Below, in pieces: positions 2,606 to 50,161 of a stretch of DNA of 64,000 nt; position 1 is the first letter of the stretch, and each line of letters begins with the position of its first letter. Source of the DNA: Antedon mediterranea (taxonomy: Eukaryota > Echinodermata > Crinoidea > Comatulida > Antedonidae). The position numbers and the translations under genes are program-made. The DNA is taken from assembly GCF_964355755.1 (NCBI RefSeq), contig NC_092671.1:11295001-11359000 (forward strand), read 5' to 3'. The notes beneath the pieces were generated by a model. It was given only the letters and a program-made list of their open reading frames with translations, searched no databases and had not been told where the DNA came from.

Positions 2606-2822
2606 TCACATATAATGAGCAAAAGGCTGTCTACACAATAGATCCATTCCGTGTAAGTTCGACGTCAATCCATTGTTGCAGTTTGGAGATGGAAACGGGG
2701 CGTAACTGGGTGGGTAAGTTGGTATGACTGTGTTGTACCAGGGAGACATGAACGGTGTTCCCCAGAGGCCTTGTCGCTGAGCTATCTTCAGACGAGCTGT
2801 AACTTGTTTTTTCCATTTCGTT
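2606..2822 (-). CDS. msxlx: Msxlx-like ANTP-class homeobox protein, coding exon 3
   Basis: 217 bases, acceptor TCTTCTAG/A, ending in a TGA stop at 2606. It completes Arg53 and gives the end of homeodomain helix 3 (TKWKKQ), followed by a conserved-looking extension, VTARLKIAQRQGLW, that I associate with Msxlx proteins, and a Pro/Tyr/Ser-rich tail (IPTYPPSYAPFPSP) ending AHYM. The open frame continues upstream into a GTCG/GTCT microsatellite, but that part (2823-2989) is intronic because the phase and the homeodomain both demand the acceptor at 2823-2824. Confidence 0.88.
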
Positions 2823-2870
2823 CTAGAAGATAAATCATTAATTAATGAAGTGGTGTTTCTCTGTATTTTT

Positions 2871-2943
2871 AGTCGCGTGGACGCGACTCTATAGTTCACT
2901 ATGTCGGTCGGTCGGTCTGTCGGTCTGTTGGTCTGTCGGTCTA
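2871..2943. repeat. Hairpin AGTCGCGT/ACGCGACT plus GTCG/GTCT microsatellite
   Basis: An 8 bp inverted repeat with a 2-base loop (2871-2888) sits 15 bases before a run of GTCGGTCG and GTCTGTCG tetramers (about 2903-2943). The whole lies in intron 2 of the Msxlx-like gene, 49 bases upstream of exon 3. It gives rise to a spurious Arg/Pro/Thr/Asp repeat peptide. Confidence 0.8.
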
Positions 2944-3732
2944 TCTGGCTGCTGGCCTTGTTTTTACATACTATAGAATATTCAGTCATTTACGATTAAC
3001 TTGACTTGGAGAAATAAGAATTTATCCAAGTCAGCAAAGCAAAGCTCCTCATTCACCTTTTTCTAAACCTAAAGATGACTATATAGGCCTATAACGCACA
3101 AGGTAAGAGCAGTGAGTTGCTAATTAACATCTTTGATGAGAGTAACTAAGTTTCGACTTTAAATTTGTTTAAATATCGATTTTTTCGAAAATACTTCAGC
3201 GGCCAACATCAAATAAGGCAACCGAAACAACAACATTATTCTCAATGTTTATATGACTATACTCAAAATTGACCTTTCAATCGTTTTAATTATAATCGAA
3301 TTAAACTAATCGGATTGAAAGCAGTACTAAATATAACAATTACAATGTACCTAACATCGAAACAAGCATTTAATGAGAATGTAAAAGGCGTTATTGTGTG
3401 ATAGAAACAGACCGCTAAGAGGAAATCGATATCCAGTAATAATTATAATTAAATAGTAGTAATATTTAAATCTTTAGCAATTAATTAAGATTAGATATTG
3501 ATACTTTATGTGTTGTCGCCGACAATTATTCAATATTTAAAGATCTTTCACAATCATTAACAGAATACTAACATACATTTACTATATAACAGTCAGCAAC
3601 AACAAAAGACAAATCTATACTTGTTAACCTCTGTCATGCCATATATATTTCTTAATGTCATAAGTTGTTTTTGGCAATAAAAGTTATAAACATAGACATT
3701 GTTTCGGATACAAACTGAATTAAAGTGTATTG

Positions 3733-3746
3733 CCCCCCCCCCCCCC
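3733..3746 (+). repeat. Poly-C run of 14
   Basis: Fourteen consecutive C, a rare homopolymer in AT-rich DNA and a potential G-quadruplex or i-motif seed on the complementary strands. It is also a likely spot for sequencing length error. Confidence 0.95.
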
Positions 3747-4087
3747 AAATAAAGATTTATAAAATCAGACTTTGAATAGGCCATTTTTATCAAAAACACC
3801 ATTGTCTGACAGATAATTTGACTATTTTTTGCTTTAAATTACAGTTTTTCAGGTAAATAATTTGTTTGCCGATGCAATTTTTGGTCAAAGTGAATAACTA
3901 TTATGTGACTGACATTAAATTGGTATTTATTCAAACAATGTTTTTTTTTCAGAGGGACTATATCTTTAAGTTGAATACATTTGTATTTTTCAAGTTCAGT
4001 AAGTATGTTTTTATTAGTGAAATTGAAACGCCATTTCTTAATTTATTAGGCGGTTTAAATTCAGAAATATTTCAAACAAAAGCAAAC

Positions 4088-4246
4088 TCGAAAAGAAGCC
4101 CATGGGCTTAAACTTCGAAAAGAAGCCCATCTCGAAAAGAAGCCCCCCTCTACAGTTTGCAAAAGTACTCTCGAAAAGAAGCCCATCTCGAAAAGAAGCC
4201 CATCCAAGAGCACTAAAAAACGAAGAAGCCCATGGGCTTCTTTTCG
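4088..4246. repeat. Cluster of TCGAAAAGAAGCCCAT repeats with palindromic ends
   Basis: Five direct copies of TCGAAAAGAAGCCCAT or close variants start at about 4088, 4115, 4132, 4172 and 4188. A terminal partial copy (about 4222) meets an inverted copy at 4231-4246. The palindromes AAGCCCATGGGCTT (near 4095) and GAAGCCCATGGGCTTC (near 4225) mark both ends. It is not a simple tandem array because spacer sequence separates some copies. Confidence 0.85.
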
Positions 4247-4981
4247 AGGTTTTACGGTATCGCAAGAGCAACGAACCTTACTTGATTTTAATCAATAAGC
4301 TAACACGTTCAATCATAATTATAGATTTCTCTGTTATGATAACAATGATACTCCACAGATAAAGTATAATCGCTTAACAAAATAACTTTATTAGCAAATG
4401 AACCGACTAATTGCTGTTGTTTTTATTGATTTAACTTTTTCCACTCCAGGTATTTGCCCACCTTAATTGCGGTTGGTTATTTTCATTGGGCCTAAGAATC
4501 CAATCGTAATAGGAATAGGTAAAGAAAGACTTTAAAGCTATATGGTGTCTAAAGTAGACTACGAATGATGATGATGAAAATTGTTATGCCAGAATAATGA
4601 TATAAAAAACAATAATTAAAAAAATAATATCTACAACAGTAGTAATGACTACAATTTTTATGTGTTTAAATTTTAAATGTAAATATGTATAATGTTTGTA
4701 TGATGTAGTATGTTTAAGCGGATATTAGCCCTTGATGGCATTTGCAACAATAAATAAATTTAATTGAAGAACCAGAATTCATAATTGGCAAAGTTTATAT
4801 TGAAATAATAATTTTATAAAATTATTATTCGAACGCTTTGTATAAACGATGGCCAGAAAGGTTGCAGACGTGTAGAATAATTCAACAAGAAACATGCAAA
4901 GGCAAACGGCAATATCAATTTCGTACAAAGTAATTTTGTGCTATATTAATATAATATGAAAAAAGTAAATAAAGTACACAC

Positions 4982-5180
4982 CTTCTGTTTTGGAACCATG
5001 TTTTGATTTGCGTTTCTGTGAGATCCAAATTCATTGATAACTCCAATCTCTTACTAACACTGAGATACTTGTCTGTTTTAAACTCTTCTTCAAGTCGTTC
5101 TAATTGTTTCGATGAGTAAGCCTGTCTTGGTTTACGATCAACCCCGGGCTTTCTTGGTCGCCTGCCTAGCTGTTTTTGAC
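4982..5180 (-). CDS. msxlx: Msxlx-like ANTP-class homeobox protein, coding exon 2 (homeodomain)
   Basis: 199 bases, acceptor ATTTTCAG/GT, donor AGAAG/GTGTGT. It encodes residues 162-228, starting with a basic segment GRRPRKPGVDRKPRQAY and continuing through most of the homeodomain. The homeodomain (residues 176-235) has Arg5, Tyr8 (usually Phe), Leu16, Phe20, Trp48, Phe49, Gln50 and Asn51. The intron splits the Arg53 codon and is completed exactly by exon 3. The segments KYLSVSKRLEL and TQIKTWFQNRRTKW are shared with Msxlx-type proteins as I recall them, and partly with BarH. Phe49 argues against BarH, which has Tyr there. The sequence differs clearly from Mnx, Gbx, Not and Msx proper. Confidence 0.9.
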
Positions 5181-5304
5181 CTGAAAATTAAACATTTTTG
5201 ATAACATTTTAGAAGAAGTAGAGAAGTAAAAATGTAGAAGCTCAGAAGAAATTACGAATGTTATAAAGTCTATTGTTTTATCTACAGTATAAACAAAAGA
5301 TTAC

Positions 5305-5788
5305 CTGCAAATGGATGTCGTGTTATGTCAGGTGCGTATAACCATTGCGGCCAGGTATTAATTTCAGAGCTTTTGAATCCACACGGAAAACTACCAGGTG
5401 GGGCGATTGATGGTGGAAACCTTGTAGGCATACCGAGACTTCCTGGTAAGCCCTCGATACAAGCAGTAGGTCGAACCAAAGATATCTCAAGCCCGTCAAC
5501 CTCGGGAAGGTTGTGTTCGTTAAATACTGCCCTTGGTAAGGCACTTCTGCCCTTGTGATTCCAGTCTTTCTCGTTTTTTGCATCACCTTTGGCAGGATTT
5601 AATGAACCTGCAGATGGTTTCTCCGTGTTTCCGCATACGTTAAGAATTCTATCTATCGAAAATGATGATTCAACATTACTAGACTGTTCAGCCTTTTTTG
5701 ATTGTCTTTTTGGAACGATGTTCATTTCTGTATCTTTGTTTTCGCTATTTGATGTGGTTGCCTCAGTCTTCGATCCAAAACTTTCCAT
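5305..5788 (-). CDS. msxlx: Msxlx-like ANTP-class homeobox protein, coding exon 1
   Basis: First coding exon of a complete three-exon gene (joined with 4982-5180 and 2606-2822) encoding about 299 residues of a homeodomain transcription factor. The exon gives residues 1-161. It contains an eh1 motif, FSIDRILN at residues 43-50, which recruits Groucho/TLE co-repressors in many ANTP-class proteins, so a repressor role is likely (family inference). The rest is low in secondary structure and ends with WPQWLYAPDITRHPFA before the donor GCAG/GTAATC (phase 1, matching exon 2). The ATG at 5788 is the only start that includes the whole frame. The gene is divergent from engrailed, with 18 kb between the two start codons. 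The homeobox assignment is certain; the family name Msxlx is from memory and moderately supported. Confidence 0.85.
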
Positions 5789-7277
5789 CTTAACGTAAGT
5801 TGAATATAACTCGTAACTCTTTTTTTTTTACTGTTTAGCAAACTGTCTTAAATTTTAAACACTAGATGACATCTTCAAAGTACCTTATCGTCCGTTTAAG
5901 AAGTTCAATCGAAGAAAATAGACGTATGAATTTAAAAACTCACACGCATACATTCACCATTCTGTGTTCCAAGTGGCTGACGTGTCGGCCCGTGTTGGTC
6001 TTTTTAAGTCTCTCGTACGATCGATAGGTCTTATCATCGTACTAATACACTCAAATCGAATCGCTTTCTTCAACTCTGAAACGCTAATTGTTTTCTAAAA
6101 TCTTGACAAATATTCAACGATGATCTAATTCCAGCCACTGTATCGTTATTCAAGCCATGTAATAACCTCTTATTAATTGATCATTATTTCTATAATTGTA
6201 TACGTTCGTTTACATTTGTTGTTTTTGTTTACTTACCGTACCTTATAACAAGACAACATTTTTGAGAAATATACTATTGTTTTAGGTCTCTGTTAATTAA
6301 ATGTTCTGTTTGATTATCTAAACGTAGGTTCTATTTTTGTTATGTCGTTTTGGTCTAGTATACACATTTCTTTTTATTTTCTAGAATAATGCATAAAATC
6401 GTTGAATTTTGTTGAACATTTATTTATAATTTATAGCTACTAAAACAAAACATTATGCCTTTTAATTTGTCTTAAAACACCTAGTCAATCCATCAAATAA
6501 ACTTCAATTCCTCGTAAGCCTACGCAAACACTTTTAGTCAAGTCCGCGAAGACATGACCGTCGCGTAGACACGCGTTCAAACACTAACGACACCTGGTTA
6601 AACTCGTCAAACGAACAATCTCCATTTATGATTACAATATCGACGAATAGTAAGTATCGGTTTTGTTCTAAATTATTGATTTTGGTGAATATTCGGTAGT
6701 GAAATGGTAAACATAATGTTTGAAATCACTTAAATTAAAATTAGTGTATTTTGGTGTTTTAAATTATCAAACAAGTTCCACATTAAACTTTAAAACCATG
6801 AGATTTTATGTTTATTCAACTAATATCGTCTCGGAATTCTATTTGTTATATGTTAAGTGGAACTGTACTTTGTGGTTAATGTGCTTGCCTTACCAATCGC
6901 AATTGGGCTTATCTTCATCATCATCTTTCTTCATTGTGCATACACCTCATTTCAATATAGTCCGTACATGGGTTGGTAGAATTTTATGCAACTGGGCTTA
7001 CATTTTGTATTCCACACACGTTTCATTTTTTATTTATTTATTTATTTTGGTTGAACATTTTATCTACGTGTTATCCTTCTTTTAGTAAAGATAATTTCAG
7101 ATTTCAACATTTCATCATAAGTTTCATCCTGACCTGTATCACTCCATCCCCAAGTATCAAACGAGACTTACTTTATAAGCACAATATAGAAATGTATCCA
7201 TCATGAATTTTCGAGTTGGATAAAAATAAAGACACATAAGATAATAGAGAACATTATAACACATAAACAGTGAATAG

Positions 7278-7475
7278 AGTCGAGTGGCAGGAAAGCTGCA
7301 AACCGTACTAGCAATAAATTCGGCACAGGACCAAGCCTATTTTCGATCATGTTCTGGTAATAGAACAAGTCTTCTCGGATAGGTCCAGTGTACATATCCA
7401 TGAATGTGCACTTTAAATAACCCAGCGCATCTTTTAGAAGAGTGTAGGGGGTACCCCGTTTTATCCTAATAGTCC
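7278..7475 (+). mobile_element. tRNA-derived SINE, diverged copy
   Basis: It matches the SINE at 52716-53060 (opposite strand) in several blocks in the same order: GGCAGGAAAGC..CCGTAC, AACAAGTCTTCTCGG, AGGTCCAGTGTACA, GTGCACTTTAAA and GTAGGGGG. The tRNA-like head is more decayed here. The long open frame on the minus strand of this segment is a by-product of the repeat. Confidence 0.7.
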
Positions 7476-9402
7476 ATATGTGGCTGTTGGTGGTCCACAG
7501 AGGACATAATGCCAATTTCCTCGACTTAAGGATGAACATTTCAAGTATCAAATACAAATATACATAATAGTACGATTTACTATTTTTACTTCAAATCGAA
7601 ATCGTAGTATAGTACCAATAAAGTACGATTAAAGACGAAGGGAAAATTAAATCGATTAAATAATGCAGTATTCGTATTATTTAATTGTATTAATGAATAT
7701 GAATATAATATATATCTCGTAACCACTCAGTTAGTTATCTTATAGTTAACCATAGACGTTTATAAGTGCATTAATGACTTCAATTACAATCTCAACAATT
7801 CCTAATCGAGTCTAATTACACACTCAGGAACATTGATTGTCTGCCAAATATTAATAAACCATGCTCCGGGCGAATTTATTCACCTGATAATTGATTCATG
7901 AGATCGTGTAGTTCCACATGAAATCCATATTTTCCTCAGGCTAGACACGGTGAAGCTGAGATCTCCACTCACTCCTGGAAAGCCTGAATCATTTTGGCGC
8001 TATAATAATGGACCACGGACAGTTTGTGTATTGATTTGTTTTAAGGGTGTTCGGATATATTTCAGAACGATGTATTAATGGTGATTTAGTTTTCTGCTCG
8101 ATTGAAGCATATAATTCGACGATTCGACTTCTAATCGTCGTGTTTGATTTTTAACTCCTTTCTTCCAGATTTATATTTTTCAAAAACAATAAGAAACCTA
8201 TTTTCCGCTTAATAAGCTGCTATAATCATTTAAATACTTAGGAAAATGCTAAAACCGAAAGAGTGCGTTATTATGGTATATTGATGCTACAACAGTTTTT
8301 ACTTTAATTACATTTTTAAGTTTTGTGACGTCATCAATAATTATATAGATTTTCGTTCTACCATACAAAGACTTACTAAATTATATTGCACTATGTCCGT
8401 TGTATAGTCACATAAATGGAAATTTAAATACAATTAACGCGTATTTCTTCCATTTAAATACAGTTTTTGCCAGTTAAAATTAACGCTGTTTTACGAAAAA
8501 CGCGCGTCGGTGTTATATTAGGAAGACATCAAGAAAAAGAATCAATTCTTCACAGGTACCAAATGGATTTCAAATATCTACGATCGGGTTACAAATAATT
8601 ACCTGTTTTTGAAGATAATAAATTGTGTACATAGTGGAGCTAAATTTCCCTTTACTGCCCAACAGTCAATTACTGAAAGCAAATTCTAGCCCCGCTCTTG
8701 GTTAAGTAACGATTTACAGCTAATCAAATGTTGATACATGATCAGATGTACGTTCAATCAGTTAATTTCAAACACACTTTCCAAAGAAATAAGTTTTCCT
8801 TTTTGACAATTTAAAACCTTGTATCGAATGCGTTCTTTAATTAGAGTATATCGTCAATGGAGAAGATGCGGGGACAACTCTTACTAATCAGTGGGAAAAA
8901 GCTGTGTAAATAGGCGTATTGATTTCCAACGTTGTGCTGCTGGTTGGGGACATTGATGACAGAATCAATTGCTGTTATGTCGTTGTTTCGCACACCATTT
9001 TTCAGGAAAAAAAATAAAATTAGGATAAAAAAGAAAGTAATTATAAAACATGTATAACTGAATATGTTTTAAAATTTAGAATGACTTTAATGTACAATCG
9101 ATAAAAACTTCTGTGTTTCTATCCACTCTTCTCTACCCGGGTAATGTGAACGATTGTTAAGCCACGACGAATTTGATAGAATTCATATCATTTCTTTTTA
9201 GTTTTGCTTATCTTATAATTTTTTTGTATTGAAAAAATGATGAATCTTTATTTGAAGTCAAATCGTCAATACGTCAATACCTAATCTTATTAGCCCTTGT
9301 TAACGTAACTACGTTACGTATACACATCCAATCATACGCAAGATGTTTATATACCGTGACGTCATGACAAACAATTGAAGTTTGTTAAAATGTAACACAT
9401 CA

Positions 9403-9418
9403 TACTAGAGGGCAGTGT
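9403..9418 (+). promoter_or_regulatory. CTCF-like motif
   Basis: TACTAGAGGGCAGTGT closely matches the core bilaterian CTCF consensus (CCNNYAGRKGGCRS). An inverted related word, GTGCGCCCTCTTTT, lies at 9490-9503, and a GGGGGCGCTG-type word lies in reverse near 10583. This is motif evidence only. Confidence 0.35.
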
Positions 9419-9950
9419 GCTGTTTACAATGTTAAAACAGAATATTTATCTTCGTGCTGCACTTGAAAAATCCTGCCACACTAACATACGTGCGCCCTCT
9501 TTTATCCGAACTTTTAACGGAACGCTTCGGAACGTTATCTCGGACTATATCACATCATGTCTTTCTATATTCAATTAAAGTATTTGGAGCTTTTATAACC
9601 AAGAGAGTGCATTTTTTGTTGTTGATAGTTTGATACTAGTAATAGGCCTATGAGTAATAATTAGTAAAATAAAACATTCTTGTAATCCAGTCATATTATA
9701 TTTGTGCGTTAATTAAATCGTATCCACATAATCTATATATAAATGCACATAATCGTTATAAAATAACATTCAATTTCCTAATTTACAAATTAAATAATCT
9801 ATAATAACAAATGATATTAATTTTCCCTTTAGATAATGAGCTATGTCTATATTTTAATCTTTTCTAATCCGTAAATAATCCATAGAATATGTGTCATAGA
9901 ACACTTGAAGGATGGGTCTACTATCGTTATTATACACGGTAAACCTCTAT

Positions 9951-10169
9951 GCTTGTTTCCCACTAGCGACGCAAAGTAACGCAATCTACGCAACGAAAGA
10001 AAATGCCTATCCGATAACTGTGTTTGCTACCGCCTGCGTGAAATCGATGCGATGTTTTCAGCACTGATGCGTCGTCGGTTCCCACTTCTTGTGATTGTGC
10101 AATACAGCACTTTGTGTCAATACGTTGTAGCGTTGCGTTACGTTGCGTTTCTAGTGTAAATCACGCTTT
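9951..10169. mobile_element. Foldback (inverted-repeat) element
   Basis: The ends are inverted repeats: GCTTGTTTCCCACTAG..ACGCAA at the left and TTGCGTTTCTAGTG..ACGC at the right. The interior is rich in ACGCAA/TTGCGT words and fits the same family as 58850-59004 and 12597-12693. No coding capacity. Confidence 0.65.
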
Positions 10170-12596
10170 ATGTTCGCTGTATATCCATCGCAATGCGCTT
10201 GCCGTCGACCATCAATAATTATTAATAATAAATAAATATTTTGATCTCAAATGTATGTGATAATGTAATTATGACATAATTTGATGAATAATCATTATTT
10301 CATCATTAGAAAAAATGTGCAATATAAAAAAAGAAGAAAAAACAGTAACAGATTTATACCCATCATTAGGACAATTTTAAATCGGGACAGCCATAACTAT
10401 TTAAACTATTGTCTTAGTATTGGTGGAAATTAGATCCAAAAAAGATAACAATCAAAAATGTGATATTTGCAAATAGATATAGATACATTACATAACATAC
10501 ACTTAATTAAAGATAATATAAACTTAATTCAGATTCAATCTATTAGCTTAAGTAAGACGATAGCCAAAATGCTATAAAACAGCGCCCCCATAAATTTGTC
10601 TAATAAAACTTTGTTTACTTTAGCTTAATGGAATTTCACAAATAGCGACAACAATTCTCATAATGGCCATTAACAGTAAATTAAAATGATAAGATTTACT
10701 TAAATTCTATTCAGTTAGAACATTAACAAAAGAAATATCGTTGAATCGTAGTGTGTGAATTTCTCGCAGTTAAGGAATAACGTTTATATGAAGTTGTCAT
10801 TAATTCCATTAAAATCCAATAAAATAATGTTCAATTTGCCAAATGTTAATACTGAATGTAAAATAAAAGAGAAATCTATTAGGTTCAAATTAAACTAAAA
10901 GTGTCCCTTGACAAAAGCGTTAAATAGCTAGTTAACAATGCGAGTGCCTAAGGGTAGCTATCATATGGCTGCGAGTTGTTACTGCTATTTACGAACAATG
11001 CATGATTCTAAAGATAAGGGTTTTGAGAACTAATTACCAATTGTTATCACCATCAAATAGTCTTTTCAATGCTTAATGGAGTTAAGATGCGCGTGGCTAC
11101 CCTTCTGCATCGACGTCAGATTAACAAGCGGCCTTCGAGCGTGAAAGAGCGGTCGCCGCGAATGTCTCGACGCATTCGCAAAGTAAAGTAAACGGCCTAG
11201 CCAACAGATGTTGCGTTCATTTTGTTTAGTTTTGTTTAAATGCAATGGTCAGTAGTTCATATAAACCTTATTTCAACGAATCATTTGAAACAACGGCTAT
11301 TATTTAAACAAACGCATCGATTTCTTAAGGCAGTAACATTAGCTTCAGTTTTTCAAAAGTCTTTTCCGCCACTGACAACAGATGTGTCAGACTTAGCGGA
11401 CCTGTCCGTAGCCTTGGACCTCTCATAATTCTCGCCTGTCCGTCATATTTTTCTAATGATTAATACTGAATCAGTCCCTGGTGAATAATTAAGCTAATTA
11501 ATAAGTTTATATATTAAAATTTGATCTATATAGTAAATGTATTTTTATTCTTTGTACATTTATTTATTAAATAAAAATTGATAAATATAGAACACAGCTA
11601 ACCTACATAATTAAATGGTCTTTTTAATTTCTTGACAAGTTTTCATGATTCCGTACTCTTTCAACTCGACACCAGATGGTATCCATACTTTGCACAAAAC
11701 TAAAGGCTACGTATACAGAAGCCTATGTCTGTAAATTTGTCCCGGGCTTTTATTTTGGCGATTTCGGCCTCAAGTATTTTAAAGTTATACCGTACTGAGG
11801 CCTATTCTATTCCTAATGTTTAGTTTTACATACTTCGTCAGTTTCTTCATTCATTACAAATGATGTAAGTACAAAATGTTTTCTTCAAGAAGAGGAAACT
11901 CGCAATAGACCATTCTTACGTTTGTGTGAAAGGAAATGGGAGTTGTTTCGCGAAGTCCATACATACTCCATGTCTACCACTCACATCTAATCAAATAAAG
12001 TCATTATTCCAAGGTATATATCCACGGTCATGAACTATCGGAATCAATCCTCGTGATTTTAATCTGATTATTCAATTTACAAAAGATTTCAAACAAGTAA
12101 ATATTATTTATTATTTCAGATGCATTTTGACATGATTCCCACTGTGTAAGCGGTAATAGTTACACCTTCATTTGGGATCAAACTAGCCGCAGCGCATCAC
12201 GACAATTACTTCGCAGGCAGACGTCCAGAACGCGTCGGTAAACCAATCGCTCCCTATTTTGTAAGAGTACTTTCCAGGCTAAATATACCATTAACGATTG
12301 GTTTTCTTCAAAATTCTTTCATCATTCTAAATGAACGAAAGAATATAATTATGGAGTTTAGTCAAAATTACACTCTGTAAACGCAGAACCTACTTAGGAT
12401 AAATTGATGGCACTGACTAAATTAAACAGGTGTTGGCCTAGATCTACTAGCTGCTGCCATGTGTACATTGTTTAAGTCCTCAGTTTTAAAAAGTCGTTTC
12501 ACAAACTAAATCAAGTTGAAGAAAGTGTCTTTATCTAAGCTCTTAAAGATTTATTTCATTTCAGTATAAATGCAGTACATGTACTTTCCAAACTTG

Positions 12597-12693
12597 GACG
12601 AAACGCAACGACTTTAAGCGCAACGCAACCAATCTCAAGCGACAACTCACTTGCATTTCTTCTGTCGTTGCGTCCACCAAGAGGGAACCAAGC
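12597..12693. mobile_element. Foldback element, degraded copy
   Basis: GGACGAAACGCAACGAC at the left is mirrored by GTCGTTGCGTCC at the right, followed by AGGGAACCAAGC, the family's terminus. The central part is ACGCAA-rich. Confidence 0.6.
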
Positions 12694-13023
12694 CATGTCT
12701 AAAACATGTGTTTCCAAAACATCACATTTGTCTGACGGTCAGTATAATTATCCGATTTATCGTAAATTGTTCAATTTGGGTGTACTTTTTAATTTTAACT
12801 AGTGTAATCTTTAAACCTAATAATCATATTAGATATTACTTATTATTTAAGCCCTCCGTTCCCACCCAGGAAATGAAATAGCAGTTCAATTTATGACGAA
12901 TTGAGTGTTTTGCTTGTAAAAAAAGTTGTTAATAATTGAATGACGTGTAGACTTGATAAGGATCAATATCCTGATGAATATTGAAACAAATAAAACTTAT
13001 GTTTAATAGAATCATTTTTCTTA

Positions 13024-13170
13024 AAGCCCTGTTTACACTATCAAACTAGTTTGACCAAAAAAGTGCCCAAATATGGTAGTGATATGCTTCAATATGGTAA
13101 TGATATGACATCATCATGTCCAAATGCACGTCGCATTTTTTTGTCATTTAAAGTTTGATAGTGTAGACAA
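13024..13170. mobile_element. MITE family copy 1 (TIR GTCTACACTATCAAACT)
   Basis: About 147 bp with terminal inverted repeats resembling AAGCTCTGTCTACACTATC and an interior with ATATGGTAGTGATATG and GACATCATCATG words. It has no coding capacity and is a non-autonomous DNA element. The left end is AAGCCCTG and the right end is degraded after GTGTAGACAA. Confidence 0.8.
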
Positions 13171-23768: not shown

Positions 23769-24057
23769 ATGGATGAGAAGAGATCGCTACCAGCATTGAA
23801 CAGTGAAGTAAATGCACCTTGTGCTTTCGATCCTAATCTAAAATACACGAACTTCTTCATTGAGAATATTTTAAGTCCTGGATTCGGACGACTTGTACAT
23901 AGTCGCGAACCAAATAAGCTAAAAAACGATGATACGAACAGTTCGGTACAAAGTCAAGATTCAAAATCAAGTGATGGAGATGCAGACGCAACACTTAAAG
24001 CAAATTTATGGCCAGCTTGGGTTTATTGTACACGATATTCTGACCGACCAAGTTCAG
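23769..24057 (+). CDS. en: Engrailed homeobox protein, exon 1
   Basis: First of two coding exons (with 37153-37457) of a complete engrailed gene encoding 197 residues, a homeodomain repressor. Exon 1 (residues 1-97) carries the EH1 Groucho-binding motif FFIENILSPGFG (29-40) and the EH2 motif LWPAWVYCTRYSDRPSS (80-96), which binds Extradenticle/Pbx. Between them is a short Ser/Asp-rich linker. The ATG at 23769 is chosen over an in-frame non-ATG extension upstream. The donor is TTCAG/GTAAGG, phase 1, placing the intron between EH2 and EH3 as in vertebrate En1/En2. At 197 residues this is short for the family, which usually has long low-complexity spacers; here they are nearly absent. Divergent from the Msxlx-like gene and convergent with Dlx. 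Confidence 0.95.
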
Positions 24058-32062: not shown

Positions 32063-33015
32063 TATATATTAGACCGAACATAAATTTACCGGTAACTATC
32101 AATTCAAATTCGTTGGTATAAGATTATAGGCATAATACTAATTGTATAAGCTTTTGCCTTATAATGTTTAATATTTTTATAATGAGATTAGAAAGTATGA
32201 CAATACCATTTATACACATTAAAGTATGATTTTGCGGTACACCGCGTACAGTACAGCTTTTAACCTCAACCATTAAAAATATCTAACAATTTTATAGATT
32301 AGATTATCTGTCATTCAGAGAGAATAAATGGCAATTTTATAAACGAAAATATAAACATAAAATACAATAACTTAGGTGCCAATTGACTCTCATTCATTGA
32401 CCTTTATAAAGAAACATCGTTATTTATTTTTTATACATGTTTTAACTACAGAATTATAGCTGTGCAGCTAAGCCATAATTCAACTTAAACCAATCGACGA
32501 AATAGCTAAAGAAATATATTCAATAGATTTATTTATTTGAGCAAATAACTACTTAAAATAATATTATATATCGTGCGATACACATTATTATTTAAGATTT
32601 CAATCGATACGATATTGTTATCGATCTTTTACGCGTATACTAGTTAATACTCTGTCTACATTTTGAACAAGCCTTATCCAATACAATATATATTTCTCAA
32701 CAAGAGAATGGTGAAAGTTAACTGTTGAATGCCGGGTATAGATGTGATTATTATTACTATGTGAAAGACGTGCAATACATTCTTCCCAAGACGAGTTACT
32801 CTCTAATTCCTATACTTCCCATGACTTTTAGATTTGGGTATATCTTTTACATTTACATTTTTCCTTTCGTTGTATCCAGAATATACATTATGAAGTATTA
32901 TAGTTTGAATATAGGATTTGTATTATTATTCAAAATATTTAAATTAGAAGAGTTGAATAGGATATATCGATATAATACAGTATTCAATTTGAATCTGATA
33001 GATTATTGAAACATA

Positions 33016-33318
33016 AATTAGGTTGTATCTAGGATACATTATTCAAATACCATTCAAAATAGGTTGAATCTATAATAAATATTCGAATAATATTCAAATT
33101 TGGTTGAGAATACTTTATTCAAATTAGGTTCAATCGATAATACTTTATTCAAATAATATACAAATTTTGTTGTATCTAGGATACATTATTCAAATAATAT
33201 TCAATCTGATTGAATCTATAATAAGTTATTCAAATAACATTTAAATTAGGTTGAATCTGGGAAAAATTATTCAAATAATATACAAATTAGGTTGAATCTT
33301 TCAGATAATATTCAAATA
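33016..33318. repeat. Minisatellite with ATTCAAATAATATTCAAAT / GGTTGAATCT units
   Basis: About 300 bp made of imperfect units of roughly 50 bp, each with a TTATTCAAATAATAT(T/A)CAAA segment, then TTAGGTTGAATCTATAATA. At least five units are recognisable, with substitutions and small deletions. Located in the engrailed intron. Confidence 0.85.
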
Positions 33319-34734
33319 AAAATGTATTCGTAATTTAGCTGTATCATTACATTCTTACCTAATCAATACAAGAGTCCAAGTATCACGGAGAAATAATATA
33401 TGTATGATTATATAACAATTCTGTATGAAAACCTTTTAATTAGCTCATGATACGAAATTAGATCTTTTTCTCTAAGGCAATATTGACTCCTCACTACACA
33501 CTCGATAAACCAGCAAACGATCATTGCAATGAATTAATCATAAGATGGCTACATTATTAATTAACACTTACAGTATGACGAATAGATTCGATTACAATAA
33601 TCATGTCATTCCTATGTAATTTTTTCATATCAATACTATATACACGGCAGGTATGGGAAAATTGGCACCACAACGTCAAATGATATATAATTGCAGATAG
33701 ATTAGATTTCCATGCTCGCGGCAACATTATCATTGATAAATACGCTAAACTAGCAACTAGTTTGGGGGGTTTATACGTTTTCTAAAGGTAGGTTCAATTA
33801 TCATTACTACTGTCAAGGGAAATTCCTCATGATTAAGTAGTTGCCACAACTAACCTACAGTTTATTAGATTGTTCTTTTCAGTTACCGGTATGTAGTGAT
33901 TGTAAAATAAAATTAAAGTCAATAACAAGGTATGGTATATTTTGCAACTCTCGCAGTGAACAAAAAAAGAAAAAGGAAATTATTAAAAGACAATTTAGAC
34001 TTAAGTCTATAGTAGAAAACATTTTGTTTGTGTTATCAATGCATCACATAGCTGTAAATCATTGGTACTTATATACATTTATTATAATACAACATCTTTG
34101 TTTATAAATTCAGTATGGTAAAATAATTGAAGCCAATCAAGTTAATACTAATAACATGTCAACAGAGAGCGCGTTAGCTTGTGAGTTTCAACGCTAACGA
34201 CTTCAAAATATTTGTTTTTTGTTGTAATCATACCTTGTATAGATAATTCAAATAGCCTATTAGCAACACTTCGGTTCATTCGAGTGCCTCTTTATAACAA
34301 AGTGCTTGTTAAAATAGCAGTGTGTAGCGGCCGATGTTAGTTAAAGTGGTATTAACCTTATTATTAGTTTGTCGCAGTTACAATAATGCACGTGTGTATT
34401 GCGAGTGAAATTCGTGGGGTTACATTCTCGAGTAACTAAATGTCTTATATATATATCATACATAAAAATATCAAGGGCTCGCCTTGCGCATGCATGCCGC
34501 ACGCGTGCCAGACGCATCAATGGTAGATGACTTGTTTACTAAAATGTACATTGCGAGTTAAGTTGCTATGTTGGTCAATCAATATTATTTATGGATAGTT
34601 GGATAGCTTGGTTAGTCTGTAAACTGAATGATTAGGTCTAATTACCGGTTTAAAATCAACTGATCTATATTACATGGTATGTCCTATTGATATTATGGAT
34701 GTTTATTGTCAGTCCAATACGAAAACAAATACAA

Positions 34735-37152: not shown

Positions 37153-37457
37153 GTCCAAGAACAAGACGTTTGACACGAGACAAGCGAGAAGAAAAGAGGC
37201 CTAGAACGGCATTTACTGCCGAACAATTACAGCGACTGAAAGAGGAATTTCGCGTTAACCACTATCTAACGGAACAGCGCCGCCGTAGTTTAGCAGACGA
37301 TCTAAATTTAAACGAGTCTCAAATCAAGATTTGGTTCCAAAACAAGCGAGCAAAAATCAAGAAATCAAATGGTATTAGAAATGATTTAGCATCAGAACTT
37401 ATGGCCCAAGGACTGTATAATCATTCGACAGTACCTATAAAAGATGACTCCAGCTAA
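37153..37457 (+). CDS. en: Engrailed homeobox protein, exon 2 (homeodomain)
   Basis: 305 bases, acceptor TTCTTATCAG/GT, ending in TAA. It encodes the EH3 region ([12 protein letters not shown]), the homeodomain EH4 (residues 110-169, with Arg5, Phe8, Trp48, Gln50, Asn51 and the diagnostic [11 protein letters not shown]), and EH5 ([19 protein letters not shown], then TVP), which is unique to engrailed. The tail IKDDSS is very short. The phase joins exactly to exon 1. All five engrailed homology regions are therefore present and apparently intact. Confidence 0.97.
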
Positions 37458-39083: not shown

Positions 39084-39099
39084 GCGCCACCAGGAGGTA
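39084..39099. promoter_or_regulatory. CTCF-like motif
   Basis: TAGCGCCACCAGGAGG combines the AGCGCCACC word known from arthropod CTCF sites with the vertebrate CCACCAGGRGG core. The same AGCGCCACC word occurs at 1740. Motif evidence only. Confidence 0.3.
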
Positions 39100-42000: not shown

Positions 42001-43684
42001 TTTTGCCACTTTTGATTTAAATGTTTTGAATGTCGCCCTCTTTTGTTCAAAAACTTTTCTGTTAGAAAGAAACCTGGAGAAAGTCCCAGAAAATATTTAT
42101 TGAGATTGTGTTGTGATTATAGAGGGCGTCAAACATGTTCATGTTGCACAAAATAAAAGAGTCTTCTTCATTTAAGTGTAAACTGTATTACTAAATATAA
42201 CTAAAGTTCAGTTTAATGTAAACATTTTACAACTTAATTCAGACTGACAAGCACCCGCTTCTTTTGATGACAACTGTATGTTGTATCTATGAGTTATAAT
42301 TATATTATATTATATTAATCAATACGTTATTCTTTAACATGGTCTGAAGATCCAAATATCCTCATCAAAATCCATCTACTATAAAACTATAAAATAAGCA
42401 TCATACTGCAAACATTGCCAAGCGCCAACAAGTCTGATACACTAACAATCGCTTGAATAAAAGGTTTGTGTGAATGACTCCAAACTGAACAGAAGGGTGA
42501 ACGATTCTACCTCATATCTATTCTAGCCCAATCGAGCGTGGGGGAATTCGGCAAAACGTGTTCTAAACAGGAATTGTACCCATTATTTTTAGATGCATTA
42601 TACTTTCAATGTCAATGCCATCCTAACATGTTTTTGTTATTGTGATATTATCTAAAAACTTTAAATAACGTGTTGGGTTATCTACTATTATTAAAACCAG
42701 TTTATTGATCTACTTACTATAGTCTATTGTTGAATTTGACCCTGAAATTGTGTTCTTCAGTTTTTGTTTTTTACTGTTTTATGAAACGTTTCCGAGTATG
42801 TTATATTTTATTTTTGACTCGACAACGATGAAAAGATTTGTCAAAATATCCTATGTACATTTTGACAATCCATTATGTAATCTTGGAGTTTGGAATATAC
42901 CAGTAATTAATTGTAAAAGCAGTAAAAATTAAATCATCTTTTTTCACGTTATTAGAGCTATATGTATTAAAGCAGGTCAGCAAGACAGTTTTAAAGCGAC
43001 AGTTCTTCAATTCACATAATGAACATAAAATCTCTGATAAATGCGACCAAAATGTAGAATCGTTCCATCTTAAATTGCACTCTAATAACCATAATAAATG
43101 TAACAACAAACTACATGCGATTTTACAGATAAACTTTGTCAATTTATTTATTCGTTATGTACATAATAATATTAACAATAGCTATAACACAACATTCTTA
43201 TCAATTACAATCTATTTTGTTTTACATTTCTAGTTTATTTACACATTATGAGAAGGATTGTTTTTGGTTGGTACATACCCGATAGAGACTTTTCTGACAA
43301 ATAAGCCAATACAGACACTCCTATTGGAAGAAAATACCAAGTAGAAGAGAAAAATAATAACAAAATACTCCCGTTATGTCATTCATTGAAGCATTTGGGC
43401 TAGGTTTGTACCGTGGTGGTTAAATGATGGATTCACATCTACTGTATTGTTTGGGAAACTTACTATAGATCTAAAGGATCCAGTTATTTAAAACACAGAT
43501 TGGAAAATGAAAGGGAAAAAAGATTTTTTAACCAATTTTTTTTTCTATAAAGATCCTTGTCATGTTCTTTAACAACCGTCTGTTAGTATAGACTTTTAGT
43601 AGGAGAGCCATTAGATAACCGACTTCGAATGTGTATTTGGAGCAGCTTTATACTGTACCAAACTTCTGTTTTCATATAAATTAT

Positions 43685-43690
43685 TTTATT
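43685..43690 (-). promoter_or_regulatory. Putative polyadenylation signal of Dlx
   Basis: AATAAA on the minus strand, 31 bases past the Dlx stop codon. If used, the 3' untranslated region would be very short. Confidence 0.4.
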
Positions 43691-43721
43691 CAATATAGGC
43701 CTATTTGTTTTGTTATTGGTG

Positions 43722-44066
43722 TTAAATAGCTTGTTGCACTTGACTCAGTGTCATATGATGACCGTTGTTAACGTGTTGGTGGTAGTTCTGTTGAGGTGAC
43801 ACTTCAGTCTGCTGTGGGTACCAGCCGTATTGCTGTTGGTGAGGCCCATATGAACTCTGCGAATGCTTTAAGTTGGCTCTCATTTCCCATGTGTCGGGTG
43901 ATGCTCGTTCTTCGTCGAGTTGTGTCGTTGAGTGTGCTTTATGAGGTGAGCCTAGGGGTGGAATCTGCTGCTGTGTTGTCGATGGACTCTGTTTGCTGTG
44001 CGTTATTTGTTGATGACGAAGCACTTTCTTGTATTTTGATCTTCGGTTTTGAAACCAAATTTTAAC
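43722..44066 (-). CDS. dlx: Distal-less (Dlx) homeobox protein, exon 3
   Basis: 345 bases, acceptor TTCTTTACAG/GT, ending in TAA. It completes the homeodomain from position 45 (VKIWFQNRRSKYKK), so the intron falls between residues 44 and 45 of the homeodomain, the site used in vertebrate Dlx genes. The rest (residues about 183-280) is a Gln/His/Ser-rich tail, with PHQQQYGWYPQQ and HMTLSQVQQAI at the end, as expected for a Dlx activation region. The frame is open through the acceptor from upstream; the true reading starts with Val at 44066, not at an internal start. Confidence 0.95.
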   Translation of the reverse strand, partial: VKIWFQNRRSKYKKVLRHQQITHSKQSPSTTQQQIPPLGSPHKAHSTTQLDEERASPDTWEMRANLKHSQSSYGPHQQQYGWYPQQTEVSPQQNYHQHVNNGHHMTLSQVQQAI

Positions 44067-47000
44067 CTGTAAAGAAAGAAAAATAAATGAAACATTAAGA
44101 AATCAAGACTTTAAGTTTAAAAAATAAGTTTAAAATATAAAGGCACTTGGTTGTTTATGCTATTATAAATAGTGTACATTTTTTTGCTTTCTATATTTAG
44201 TTTTAGCATTTTAGTTATAAATGTATTTTTACAAATAATGGTTAATAGTTTTAAATTTGTATAGCGCAAATTACAAATAGTCTCTATGCGCAATATTTCG
44301 TTTCTTTGGATGCTGTACTTTTAGCAGGTTATTATTACTATCAATTAATATCTGGCGACCTTGACGCGTGAAGCTAATACACTATTTGGTTTTGTTCAGA
44401 AACACGTTTTTATTAAAAGAAAATAACATAGAACAGCAACAACCTAGAGTTCATTGTATACCAAAATTCTAAGCATGTTGAATAGATTCTATAGAAAGAA
44501 CACAGAAATAGGAACAATGATCATATCGTGCGCTTCCTCAAGGATGCGAAAGCTACGTTCTCATGACTGACCATGCGATAATAGATACAAGCTACCTTCA
44601 CGCATATTGTCAGCCCCTAGCAAGGTTTAAGGCCAGGGCAATATACCCTGATAGGGTTCAGTAAGAATAATAAAGGGTGCTAAAGTGATTGCTTTTCTTT
44701 TTCTAATCCACGCGTTCTTTGAATGATACATATTAAGTTAAATTGTTACGAAGTAATTATTGATAAAACAATTAATGTAATAATAGATAACATTATGATA
44801 TAATTATATATTGACAACAATAATTGTATACGTTAATTATATTTCAATACTGTATTATTAATATATAATTACCAGTACTTGTATTCATTTTATCGATACT
44901 GTAACGAGAACACTTTTTAGATTAATAAATACTATCAATGATAGCCTATACTTTTTTAAATGTTGTCAGTTATATTGAAAGTGTAACTTTTACTTTCAGA
45001 TTTTTAAGTAAATTAATGACGAATGTGTTTGTATAGCTATTATTGATTATACTGTTTGATTAAATTGCCTAATTTTGACATTAAACCACAGATATGGACA
45101 AAAGTATACAATATTGTAGGCGGATTTGGATTTTGTTTCCTCAGCTTAGGCCTATTACTGTACCTCTAAAAAGGCAGCAGTCCTAACTCTCTGCGCAGCT
45201 GAAGATAACACTAAAGCAGTGAGCAGATTATATCATACGCGTGTCTCATTAATTAACGCATTTCAATAAGTCAAGTAATTAGCCAATTCATTACTTGATT
45301 CGGTCTTTCTCATTAACATTTCAGTCGCTTTGTGCTGCCTCTTGAGTCGGTAAATGACTCCAATCCGAAGAGCAACAGGTGGTCACCTGATCGTTCTAGG
45401 CTTCTTATGAAGCCCCGCGATGCAATGTTTTCAGAAGTGGCGTGAAGCACGGTTAAGCATTACATCAAGCGTGTATGTGACGTCTGCCGCACCACGCATT
45501 ACGTAATGTCTCCTTTCTTTTCAATGAAGAGAAGGATGCTTAATTTAGCCTATGATACTTAGCGTGTATCTAACAAAATGAATCAGTATCTCAAGGGTTT
45601 TTAAGTCTTTGATTTGTCTAGTAGTAATTAAACGATGATGTTTGAATTTAACAAATATTTGTCAAATTAATTACAATTAATTGGAATTTCGTTATCTTTA
45701 CAAATAGGGCAAATTTAAGTGAGTGTTTATAGGTTATATAAGAAAGTAACATACTAATATCGTATAACTAACCAATTGAATTTTGTATTTGTGTTGTGGA
45801 GTAAAAATATTATAAACACAAATAATAGTTATCCAGCATAGAATACAATGGTTTTCTTTAAGCAGAATTCAATTCTTAAGATAGACACGTTTCTTCCGAT
45901 GGAGTTGAAAATACTCTAAATGTATTGTTTAACAAAAGACGGAAAGGTTCATTGTCCGATATAAAATAAGTAGGACAACGACGTCGCCTTGCAATAATTT
46001 TGTTCTCATTGTTTAGGCCTAAACGAGGTAAATATGTTCTATTGTATAACTTTTTTTTATTATTAAACTTTGTTTAATTATGAGACAATAGTTAGAAAAA
46101 CATTATTAAAAATTGTCGTATCATAATTATCAAAATGTATAATAAACACTCCAATAATTGATACAAAAATAAACATTGAAAATGAATGCAATGAGCTCAG
46201 CGAAGAGATTCAAAGTATATGCGCGTGTATCGTAGCGTTTTATCAGCATTTTAAGGCGCGCGTACACAACCCGTAACGATCCATCTGAATTTTAACACGC
46301 GTGTGTTGCATCAATTCATGGTGCGGCCGACATCAACTGATGTGGATATTTGTTATGCCCGTGTTGGTGTTAGCGAATAATTGTGGCAATTGTAGTCCCG
46401 TTAGTGTGGAAACTGGTGATTATTGGACCGGTAGTGACCCACTGGAAATGTCGTTACTTGTGTCGTAGTCAGTACCGTGCGGAGTGTTATTGGTAAAGAT
46501 TATTACTGCAAATTATTGGAGTCAGGTCCTTTGTAGGAGGCTGGGTGCTTACTTTTATTGGTACCGGGAGTGGAATGTTGTCGATGCTTGTGGTATAGTG
46601 CTATGACTGTGGCAGTTGATGTTGTATACGGTGCCGGGTACTGGTACAGTAAATTATTGGAGTCAATGACATCGAAAAGCTGTGTCGCGTGCTGTCTGAT
46701 TTACTTTTACTTTAAGAACATAGGATACAATCAAAGCTGCCAGCGGCAGAGAGACGTTCTGTCTTAAGCATTAGACTACATAGACTTGTTTACATAATGA
46801 AATACACAATTCCATTTGTTTCATTAAGTCATACTAAGAACTGCTGTGATCTCTGTCAAGACGAGTACAAAGCGTATTATCCAAGACTAAAGCATTGTAA
46901 TAATGAATTCAATTAAATTGGTTACCAGTAGGCCTACTTGTTACCCTCATTGTTAAATTTCAACTAACAGAATGTAGCATGTCCTTATTTTTTTTTTGCC

Positions 47001-47739
47001 CTAATTTTTTAATAATAGTTGAATTGTCTTCGAATTTATTCGGATTCAATTTGATTTTGATCACATTTAAGTGTGTTGTATTGCAGCGTCAGAATATCAT
47101 TTATATATTAATCCCATCAATTGATATTATTACTATTATTGAATGTATGAGTTTTGATCTTTTCTTTTTAAAAATAATTATACATGTAGTATTTTTTTAT
47201 TCTATTTGTTGTGAAATATATTGTAAAGAAAATTACAAGATATATTTAAAATGTCAACATATTTCAATAAGTTAGGCAGATGTTTTATCCATAAGAAAAC
47301 AGTGTTAAAATAAAGAACAATTAAACCAGTGGGCTTTATCCGATCAAATCAACAGAGAAAATGCACATGTTACATAGTCGTTAACAATAATTAAAAATAG
47401 TAACAGCAATCATAGGGGTTGGGTGGGAATTATGTTAAATGGGGAACGAACAAAGTGTCCCTTTATAAGTGGTATCCCCCGTGGCGGCATGTGTTAAAAC
47501 ATATTGCCCTTTGTTCGTCTGTCACGGGAAGTGTATACCCTTCATTTAATAGGTGTCCCAAAAATGGTTCTAATGTATATTCATGGCCCTATAATTATTA
47601 ATTAAAGTAGCATTGTTCGTTATGATTTTTTGGAGACATCAAATAAAATGAATATACAGTTCGAATTAGATCGATTCAACTCGTTAAAGTTCTATGAACT
47701 TGTTTCCTTAGGTCTGTATGACGTTTACACCATGGAGGA

Positions 47740-48150
47740 TTTATTATTATTATTTATTGCCAAAAACAAGTTACAAACACACAGAAACTAAGGGAGTAGG
47801 CAGGAACCTAAAAGTGAACCTAATCACTATAACAAGAGTTCAGGTTCCGTACTCCCAAAGTAACAACTATGATATATAATAAACTATATAAAAATATTTA
47901 TATTACAAATAGACCAATCAACAGTGTCAATATAAACTTATATAAAGCTCAATTAAAACGGAGACTAACACTTGACATTCTCATGACATCAGCTATTTCA
48001 TTTCATTGAAAAAATAGACACGCCTGGTCAAAAAAGGAATGTTTGAAATGATGGATAGCAAACGGAAAAAGAAACAAATAGATACAAAATCAATATAAAA
48101 TATCGGAATTCACAATGTAAGGAAATTAAGTACAGAAACTGTAAAAAAAA
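47740..48150 (-). mobile_element. Probable LINE 3' fragment
   Basis: Read on the minus strand it ends in GGCAATAAATAATAATAATAAA, a typical LINE 3' tail, and is preceded by non-coding sequence with a GAGTACGG/GGAACCTG-type inverted pair. No coding remnant was identified. Confidence 0.4.
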
Positions 48151-48544
48151 ATCTTCTGTTGTTGAACGATTTTTGTCGTTTTGTATAACAAAAGAGAGCA
48201 ATGTTACCGGTAGGTTTAATTAATTCATTAATTAAAACTGTAGGTCTAAATGTACAACAGGTGCCGCGTCGGTATTCCGTGACAGACGATGATTTGAATT
48301 GTTACTGCTGCAATATCTGTCGCACTATTTACTACCTGGTATTGTCCGTAAATTAATTCGTTTTCTAATTTTACATATTTTAAATAAACATTGTATGTTT
48401 GTATTGTTATTTGGAATAAACTATGCATTTCACCTCATAGCATGTTGTAATAAACATGTTTAGTTTTAGCAATTTGAATCACCAATCGAAAGTGTTTTGT
48501 TATAATTCGTGTCATATACTAGGTTTTTAGAATATACAGCACAA

Positions 48545-49040
48545 CTCACCTATTCAGGGGACATCCATAAAAGGAATGTATGTTTTTATACACAGTGTAC
48601 ATCCCTTAAATAGACAGTTTTCCTTGAAACGAATTAAGCATATTGTGTGTCTTAACATTACGACCAACCACTATTTTCACGGGACACCCACATTAGGAGG
48701 ACGACTTGTTTGGTTCCGAAATTGTCCCCTTAATATGGGTTCTATTGTATTGTCAAAATTGCATCGCCAAGGTATTGGCCTATTACTGGTACAAAGCTAT
48801 TCAGGGGAAATCCTATTGAGGAAACATTCGGGCGGTGTGTTTTAACACTAAAACCAACCCCTCTATTTTTTATGAGACTTCGTTCCAAAGATGTACTCTT
48901 AATAGGGTTCGAAGTCAATCTACTAATTTCTTTCAAACAGTAAACGAACGATATTAGTACTATACAGAGAACCCCAATACCTTCGTTAACCAAGTTCCCC
49001 CTTATTATGGATATCTTTTGAAGTGCGTGCCCCAAAAAAA
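48545..49040. repeat. Dispersed GGGGACAC-type repeat, longest block
   Basis: Contains CTATTCAGGGGACATCC, CACGGGACACCCACATTAGG, TTGTCCCCTTAATATGGGTTC and, further on, CTCTTAATAGGGTTCGAAG. Several units of the same family as 34735-34925 appear to be nested or arranged in tandem here. Confidence 0.5.
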
Positions 49041-49058
49041 GATTGTAATGTCAATCTA

Positions 49059-49206
49059 ATACCGCCCTTTCACACCAAAAACAAAACTCCGGTGTTTTGG
49101 TGTGAAAGGCACAATCAAACAACTCCGGAGTTCAAAACATTGGGGATTGAACAGCTGAACATGTTCTCTGGAGATCACAGCGGAGTTTTGGTGTGAAAGG
49201 GGTATA
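49059..49206. mobile_element. MITE with TIR CCTTTCACACCAAAA, beside Dlx exon 2
   Basis: About 148 bp. The left end ATACCGCCCTTTCACACCAA and the right end TTGGTGTGAAAGGGGTAT are inverted repeats that extend inwards through AACTCCG and CGGAGTT. Additional CTCCGGAG words lie inside. Non-coding; a different family from the GTCTACAC elements. Confidence 0.85.
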
Positions 49207-49241
49207 AGCATTAAAGTAACTTTACAAAATAATTTGTTTAC

Positions 49242-49429
49242 CTGTGTTTGTGTAAGACCTAAGGATGCCGCTAATTCTGCTCGTTCTGGTAGGGCTAAAT
49301 ACTGTGTTAGTTGGAACCGTTGGTTTAATTGCTGCAATTGGATATTGCTGTAAATAGTTCGAGGTTTTCGTATCTTCTTTCCTTTGTGATTTAACTTTCC
49401 CTTTAATTCAGTTTTATCATCAGGACATA
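49242..49429 (-). CDS. dlx: Distal-less (Dlx) homeobox protein, exon 2
   Basis: 188 bases, acceptor TTTCATACAG/TA, donor ACACAG/GTAAAC. It encodes residues 104-166, including most of the homeodomain (HD residues 1-44 of 123-182): [17 protein letters not shown], then the highly diagnostic [19 protein letters not shown] and QTQ. These are near-identical to Dlx proteins across animals. Phases at both ends match exons 1 and 3. Confidence 0.97.
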
Positions 49430-49851
49430 CTGTATGAAAATACATCATATTAAAGGATATAAGAATATTCAGAAATACAATATTGATATTTTTTATTTTA
49501 AAAATGTTACGAATACGATCACAACTATATACAATTTATAAACCATAAACTAAATGACTTTTATTTAAAATTGGAAAAATTGATCACAGAATAAATATGT
49601 GTAGGCCTAATGATGAAAAATTAATTATTCAAGAAACCTCATTATAAAACAAATTTCAAGTCAGTCAAGTCAAGTAAATTTATTGTCATTTGTAAACATA
49701 TAAAAAACATTTACATTGAAATGAATTTGAACGGTTTCGGCTAACACCAAATAAATAGAACTTACATGGTGAAACTATCTCCCGCCGGACACCATACACA
49801 ATACATGCTTAGGCCTAAATTAGTTTTAAATTAATTATTATAATCTCTTAC
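49430..49851 (-). other. Dlx intron 1 with a retroposon tail
   Basis: 422 bases. The piece at about 49660-49745, with CAAGTCAAGTAAATTTATTGTCATTTG and ATTGAAATGAATTTG-type words, resembles the 3' ends of short retroposons. Two TAGGCCTA words also occur here (49602, 49810). Confidence 0.55.
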
Positions 49852-50161
49852 CGTCAGTTGTAGGACTTGGTATCGGACAAACGTTCGGATAAGTATGATG
49901 GCGGTGAGAATTCATTGGATTCATTGAAAACGGATAACCTATGGAACGCGGGTGTTGCATAGAAGCAGCCGAAGGGTACGGATGACCCTCGTGATGAGAC
50001 TGCGGTGGTCCAGTTGCGCACCTCATACCGGGTGGGGGTATATACTGATGCGGGTTACCTGACCCATACGGTAGCTGCGGTGATTGCATCTGTTGAATTT
50101 CCATGAACGCTGATTTTGGGCAAAATGAATGTTCGTAGCTGTCTGCCATAATGTTCATCAT
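49852..50161 (-). CDS. dlx: Distal-less (Dlx) homeobox protein, exon 1
   Basis: First of three coding exons (with 49242-49429 and 43722-44066) of a complete Dlx gene of about 280 residues. Dlx proteins are homeodomain activators used in appendage, neural and ectodermal patterning (family knowledge). The exon gives residues 1-103, a Pro/His/Ser/Met-rich region (QSHHEGHPYPSA, MNSHRHHTYPNV), ending PSPTTD before the donor GACG/GTAAGA. Possible starts are the tandem ATGs at 50161 and 50158 and the ATG at 50149 (MADSYEHSF). I give the longest. The gene converges on engrailed. Confidence 0.93.

Follow-up and report, generated by a model that had tools for sequence, protein, structure and literature searches.

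The SuperHox linkage group, which is said to go back to Butts et al. 2008, is an established concept, and the gene groups that survive from it vary by lineage in the literature sampled here, where each cited paper is represented by excerpts. SuperHox lists and the Hox-linked set of millipedes name Dlx/Dll, En, Nedx, Ro, Gbx/Unpg, Mnx/Exex and Meox/Btn (PMC9976460, PMC10726417, PMC7523956), and surviving groups comprise En1-En2-Gbx in oyster (PMC5322547), BtnN-En and Exex-Nedx-BtnA in centipede (PMC4244043), and En-Mnx and Gbx-Nedx in spiders (PMC10726417). The case for a contiguous SuperHox array is built on such scattered linkages in a few phyla. Here we describe a window of 64,000 nucleotides from the crinoid Antedon mediterranea, C2:11,295,001-11,359,000, where C2 is the Hox chromosome (contig NC_092671.1) of a genome that spans 354 Mb in 18 contigs, C1-C11 accounting for 99.7% of its length. 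These eleven large contigs, together with several presumably posterior-type genes in the Hox cluster, are in keeping with a crinoid, whereas hemichordates have 1N = 23 (PMC11175523). A search of the assembly for mitochondrial COX1 gave no match. A span of 47.6 kb in this window contains three complete ANTP-class homeobox genes in the order gene 1 (-), En (+), Dlx (-). On balance, we consider it probable that these 48 kb have survived from the ancestral SuperHox array, with En and Dlx still adjacent on the Hox chromosome to a third gene of SuperHox type, whose likeliest identity is Nedx.

A tight homeobox trio within SuperHox linkage

Rebuilt models of gene 1, En and Dlx, in which all introns are of the GT..AG type and one stop terminates each joined frame, bore out the three complete and consecutive ANTP-class genes of the initial annotation (Table 1). 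Gene 1 and En stand head to head with 17,980 bp between them, En and Dlx are arranged tail to tail with 6,264 bp between them, and the En intron measures ~13 kb. As that annotation also held, no other recognisable gene was detected between the three. The window contains 43 stop-to-stop open reading frames (ORFs) of at least 80 amino acids (aa), 42 of which were scanned against Pfam (the remaining one holds gene 1 exon 3), and in the 2.6-50.2 kb interval no family other than the homeodomain and engrailed signature rose above the curated cut-offs in ORFs of this length, shorter exons being outside the scan. Short exons beyond the trio span, one from a CNPY gene and one SPMAP1-like, surfaced only through genome searches. 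An Rfam scan at gathering scores returned no match. A 41-bp minisatellite of ~8 copies occupies positions 33015-33319 of the window, within the En intron.

Judged by sequence, the identity of En and Dlx is certain. En exon 2 scored 80 bits with PF00046 and 54.7 bits with PF10525 (cut-off 22.5), and a genome search for PF10525 gave no other match; the top PDB matches of the En homeodomain were engrailed and EN2, and in a homeodomain tree it paired with the EN2 reference (100/96). En exon 1 also carries motifs that we take to be of the EH1 and WPAW types. The joined Dlx homeodomain gave DLX-5 (9.4e-29) and DLX-3 as its top PDB matches and grouped with the DLX5 reference (100/99); because Dlx exon 1 is without a Pfam match, the Dlx label rests on the homeodomain. 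The tree comprised 36 homeodomains of this genome and 18 references, EN2, DLX5 and NKX2-1 among them; of the 12 clustered Hox genes, nine were excluded, as were other homeodomains. It drew on a genome homeobox scan in which 150 of 163 candidates were scored, giving 104 PF00046 matches, of which 98 were examined (three in the window and 95 elsewhere). The six others were a set of four within a single 3,044-aa frame on C8, one at C6:22.49 Mb (L060) and the second fragment at C4:28.0 kb (L032), L numbers being our handles for loci. For genes outside the tree, the family labels are those that we take to apply.

A listing of the homeobox genes around the trio placed Hox, Evx, Gbx and Mnx on the same chromosome. 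Along C2, Meox lies at 6.56 Mb, Evx at 7.79 Mb, the twelve clustered Hox genes at 7.83-8.21 Mb, a posterior-type Hox gene at 8.83 Mb, Ro at 9.37 Mb, the trio at 11.30-11.35 Mb, Gbx at 20.77 Mb and Mnx at 39.41 Mb; the other SuperHox members (Ro, Hox-Evx, Meox, Gbx and Mnx) are thus 1.9 to 28 Mb from the trio. Meox, Evx, Ro, Gbx, Mnx, En and Dlx each paired with a reference in the tree. The earlier proposal that En and Dlx descend from an ancestral homeobox array is supported by their sharing the Hox chromosome with Meox, Evx, Ro, Gbx and Mnx. In chance tests devised post hoc, at least six of seven families (Meox, Ro, En, Dlx, Gbx, Mnx and Hhex, the last being the miss) fell on the Hox chromosome under random placement with P = 1.5e-5, and at least six of eight with P = 5.5e-5 when Dbx was added as a second miss. 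With random placement on C2, any three of the seven C2 genes came to lie inside 47.6 kb with P = 1.4e-4. Within the SuperHox linkage already described, the trio thus forms a tight group, and its adjacency goes beyond random placement.

Several other homeobox groups were seen in the genome. The Hox cluster itself is compact (C2:7.79-8.21 Mb, L002-L014), and comprises Evx and 12 homeoboxes, 11 of them on the plus strand and one, which we take to be of posterior type, inverted. Two homeodomains outside the cluster are presumably also of posterior Hox type, namely L015 at C2:8,834,273-8,834,410, 0.63 Mb past Hox1, and L057 at C8:11,079,703-11,079,834. Homeoboxes that we take to be Cdx-, Xlox/Pdx- and Gsx-type occupy ~95 kb at C5:29.97-30.07 Mb (L036-L038) and form a ParaHox cluster, while five divergent homeodomains at C9:12.37-17.93 Mb (L041, L042, L047, L051 and L052), two of them NK2-like, are perhaps lineage-specific duplicates. 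Crinoid linkage data have been put forward as a test of whether Hox11/13d and e had left the cluster by the time of the echinoderm ancestor (PMC6307216).

Identity of gene 1 and its likeness to En

The label Msxlx-like, given to gene 1 in the initial annotation, is very probably wrong on the comparisons made here. Msxlx is grouped with Nkx2.1 and Nkx2.2 in published lists (PMC9976460, PMC10726417), and the reported order of the deuterostome pharyngeal/NK2 block is xrn2, nkx2.1, nkx2.2, msx (PMC11175523). In this genome a corresponding block lies on C10, with Xrn-type exons at 15.08 Mb, an Nkx2.1-type gene at 15.15 Mb, an Nkx2.2-type gene at 15.21 Mb and a better Msxlx candidate, L056, at 15.32 Mb, whereas the window is on C2. 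These first four members keep the published order, and both Nkx2-type genes join the NKX2-1 reference in the tree. The block is at best partly intact, since the only CLZ match in the genome, on C5, places Cnga elsewhere and 3.7 Mb separate the Nkx2.1-type gene from the one Pax match on C10, which was not assigned to Pax1/9; no FoxA assignment was made for the forkhead matches on C10. The Msx clade (99/86) includes L056 and not gene 1, both being long branches flagged unsure in a tree that holds no Msxlx reference, and gene 1 is identical to L056 at 15 of 42 positions. It is therefore very improbable that gene 1 is an Msxlx gene relocated to the Hox chromosome out of the NK2/pharyngeal block, even though its identity to the Msx of this genome (28/56) is no less than that to En or Dlx, the grouping of L056 is unsure and Msxlx was set aside without a direct reference sequence. 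The Msxlx name, now corrected, would have implied a join of two different ancestral linkage groups; with a SuperHox-type neighbour in its place, the trio is more coherent than the initial annotation assumed.

The ANTP families reported as lost from vertebrates are Abox, Bari, Msxlx, Nedx, NK7 and Rough in the excerpts used. Better candidates than gene 1 were found elsewhere in the genome for Ro, NK7, Bari and Msxlx, which leaves Nedx or Abox by elimination. A Bari identity was considered and rejected in favour of L034 (C4:32.51 Mb), which stands beside the Barhl-type L035 and is itself placed by the tree in a Bar-type group; the Bari label of L034, like that of NK7, is one that we take to apply. 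A phase-2 intron interrupts the gene 1 homeodomain at codon 53, and the best single-domain PDB relative of this homeodomain is BarH-like 2, with a double engrailed chain higher in summed score. An EH1 motif towards the N-terminus and an NK affinity have been reported for Nedx/lms, and exon 1 of gene 1 encodes the EH1-like motif SSFSIDRIL, which is not specific to Nedx. Gene 1 also shows SuperHox linkage, lying beside En and Dlx on the chromosome of Hox, Evx, Meox, Ro, Gbx and Mnx. Nedx is preferred over Abox because it appears in both SuperHox lists (PMC9976460, PMC10726417) and Abox in only one (PMC10726417). The most likely identity of gene 1 is Nedx and the alternative is Abox, an assignment reached by elimination and not by alignment to Nedx. 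That gene 1 is Abox, which would leave the reading of the locus as a relic otherwise the same, appears distinctly unlikely: Abox stands on the Super-Hox list of the spider paper and, like Nedx, is Hox-linked in millipedes (PMC7523956), whereas the N-terminal EH1 motif and NK affinity reported for Nedx/lms fit gene 1, neither being specific. A text search of the literature for gene 1 peptide strings and variants of them gave no match. A divergent homeodomain at C4:5,098,447-5,098,587 (L030), ~50 kb from an NK1-type gene, may belong to Abox or another NK-linked family.

Gene 1 and En share features upstream of the homeodomain. The segments before intron 1, NTWPQWLYAPDITRHPFAG in gene 1 and NLWPAWVYCTRYSDRPSSG in En, are of equal length to the same phase-1 junction and identical at 7 of 19 positions; a WPxW[VL]Y motif stands at an identical distance from the phase-1 intron, and both proteins carry an EH1-like motif. 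Of the 1,992 sites in 144 kb that resemble a phase-1 donor, that of gene 1 was the best non-self match to En (score 40, against 18 for the next), and none of 200,000 shuffles reached the gene 1-En score, for a segment picked after the likeness had been noticed. The common motif spacing and intron phase are what old tandem copies would be expected to show. W-motifs ahead of an intron are widespread in ANTP genes; for this reason, and because the tree leaves gene 1 unplaced and its closest homeodomain is L029, a sister relationship between gene 1 and En is put forward as a hypothesis.

Flanking genes and the human EN2 region

The CNPY (canopy) gene on the left of the trio lies 1.7 kb from the gene 1 stop and ~23 kb from the En start codon, and the remaining CNPY-type matches in the genome are on C1 and C9. 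Farther left are an HD-domain gene resembling what we take to be HDDC3 and a rhodopsin-type receptor. To the right of the SPMAP1-like gene or genes, C2:11.377-11.398 Mb (L106-L108) contains a reverse-transcriptase-like frame and repeated transporter-like exons, as judged by eye.

Table 1. Features of the trio and its borders, numbered from the first nucleotide of the window
Feature	Position	Strand	Remarks
CNPY (canopy) gene, two exons seen	209-412, 772-900 (209..900)	-	PF11938
Gene 1, ANTP-class homeobox	2606..5788	-	299 aa; PF00046 70.9 bits
Gene 1 exon 3	2606..2822	-	homeodomain end and C-terminus (TARLKIAQRQGLWG)
Gene 1 exon 2	4982..5180	-	homeodomain into codon 53
Gene 1 exon 1	5305..5788	-	ATG to GTAATC donor; phase-1 intron 1 after NTWPQWLY motif
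En exon 1	23769..24057	+	FFIENILSPGFG, LWPAWVYCTRYSDRPSSG, phase-1 donor
En exon 2	37153..37457	+	homeodomain and engrailed C-terminal signature; En total 197 aa
Dlx exon 3	43722..44066	-	remaining homeodomain and C-terminus
Dlx exon 2	49242..49429	-	first part of homeodomain
Dlx exon 1	49852..50161	-	no Pfam match; Dlx total 280 aa
SPMAP1-like gene(s), right border of trio	58570..62014	-	PF15075; all three genome-search matches here

In human, SHH is a neighbour of EN2. In this genome a Hedgehog gene is on C2, but at 3.27 Mb. Human EN2 is flanked by five genes, including HTR5A, INSIG1 and CANOPY1 (PMC3919719, in excerpt); CNPY1 thus flanks EN2 there, and here a gene of the CNPY family adjoins gene 1. 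The two regions differ further in that a third homeobox gene stands here between CNPY and En, and in the positions of INSIG, on C1, and Hedgehog. The CNPY adjacency was noticed first and the human comparison made afterwards, and a literature search for microsynteny or a regulatory block involving CNPY, EN2, engrailed or Dlx found nothing relevant. By analogy, CNPY beside gene 1, as CNPY1 is beside human EN2, would favour a relic.

Origin of the adjacency

If the trio is a relic, its persistence may have a regulatory basis. EH1-like motifs are associated with Groucho-type co-repression and WPxW motifs with the binding of Pbx/Exd-type partners, and each of the three genes is predicted to encode a sequence-specific transcription factor; the motifs of gene 1 and En suggest that their products could act through both types of contact. 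Three transcription-factor genes lie within one gene-poor territory. Elements that regulate more than one of them may be located in the head-to-head interval (18 kb), in the En intron (13 kb) and in the tail-to-tail interval (6 kb), and shared or interleaved enhancers would oppose separation of the three. The sequence fits equally well an old tandem array that has survived passively.

A number of observations weigh against survival of an ancestral array, whose adjacency we infer from one genome. The trio has the strand order -,+,-, and INSIG, on C1, is away from it. Hhex is on C4 and what we take to be Dbx is on C7, each being on one SuperHox list yet off C2. Gene 1 occupies a long branch flagged unsure, joining neither En nor Dlx in the tree, and its closest homeodomain in this genome is that of the NK1-type L029 (35/56 identical). 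When 40, 60 or 100 random loci were considered genome-wide, a triple in this span arose with P = 3.8e-4, 1.7e-3 and 9.4e-3, and the chance and motif tests alike were devised after the pattern had been noticed. The surviving groups described in excerpts for oyster, centipede and spiders are, like the trio, small but have other partners, and none is En-Dlx.

It is possible, if somewhat unlikely, that in the ancestor the three genes lay at separate places on the Hox chromosome and were united secondarily by lineage-specific inversions within it, through chance or selection. The mixed strands and the want of an En-Dlx pair among the oyster, spider and centipede groups described would fit such a reassociation, as would the spread of the other C2 SuperHox genes over 33 Mb, which indicates that rearrangement on this chromosome is common. 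It is opposed by the low probability of finding three of seven genes within 47.6 kb under random placement on C2, by the motif spacing and intron phase common to gene 1 and En, and by the CNPY neighbour, as at human EN2. An assembly error joining unlinked loci between En and Dlx is extremely improbable: the contig sequence gave no signs of a misjoin there, the 64 kb being free of ambiguous bases (Ns) and the guanine-plus-cytosine content per 2 kb staying at 0.27-0.37 with no step at 37-44 kb, and the two genes come from the same expected linkage group. We therefore retain the surviving SuperHox piece as the preferred reading. A bolder form of it, which we regard as speculative and unlikely, would make CNPY-gene 1-En-Dlx an undisrupted SuperHox core with gene 1 and En as sister tandem duplicates, kept together by common regulatory elements from the deuterostome ancestor or earlier, and vertebrate EN2-CNPY1 a remnant after loss of gene 1 and departure of Dlx.

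A literature phrase search for En-Dlx, Nedx-Dlx and En-Nedx pairs returned none, in a collection that leaves most subscription papers outside and so cannot show the arrangement to be unpublished. The locus is compact enough for testing shared regulation of engrailed and Distal-less, and the tight En-Dlx-plus-one group together with CNPY provides a definite gene order to seek in other genomes. As in the SuperHox group of the excerpted lists (PMC9976460, PMC10726417), Hox, Evx, Meox, Ro, En, Dlx, Gbx, Mnx and probably Nedx share a chromosome here. Millipede Hox-Eve linkage is given, in the excerpt, without distances or adjacency (PMC7523956), unlike that of the trio, and SuperHox genes are reported to be usually dispersed along the chromosome (PMC9976460), whereas in this crinoid three of them lie within 48 kb.

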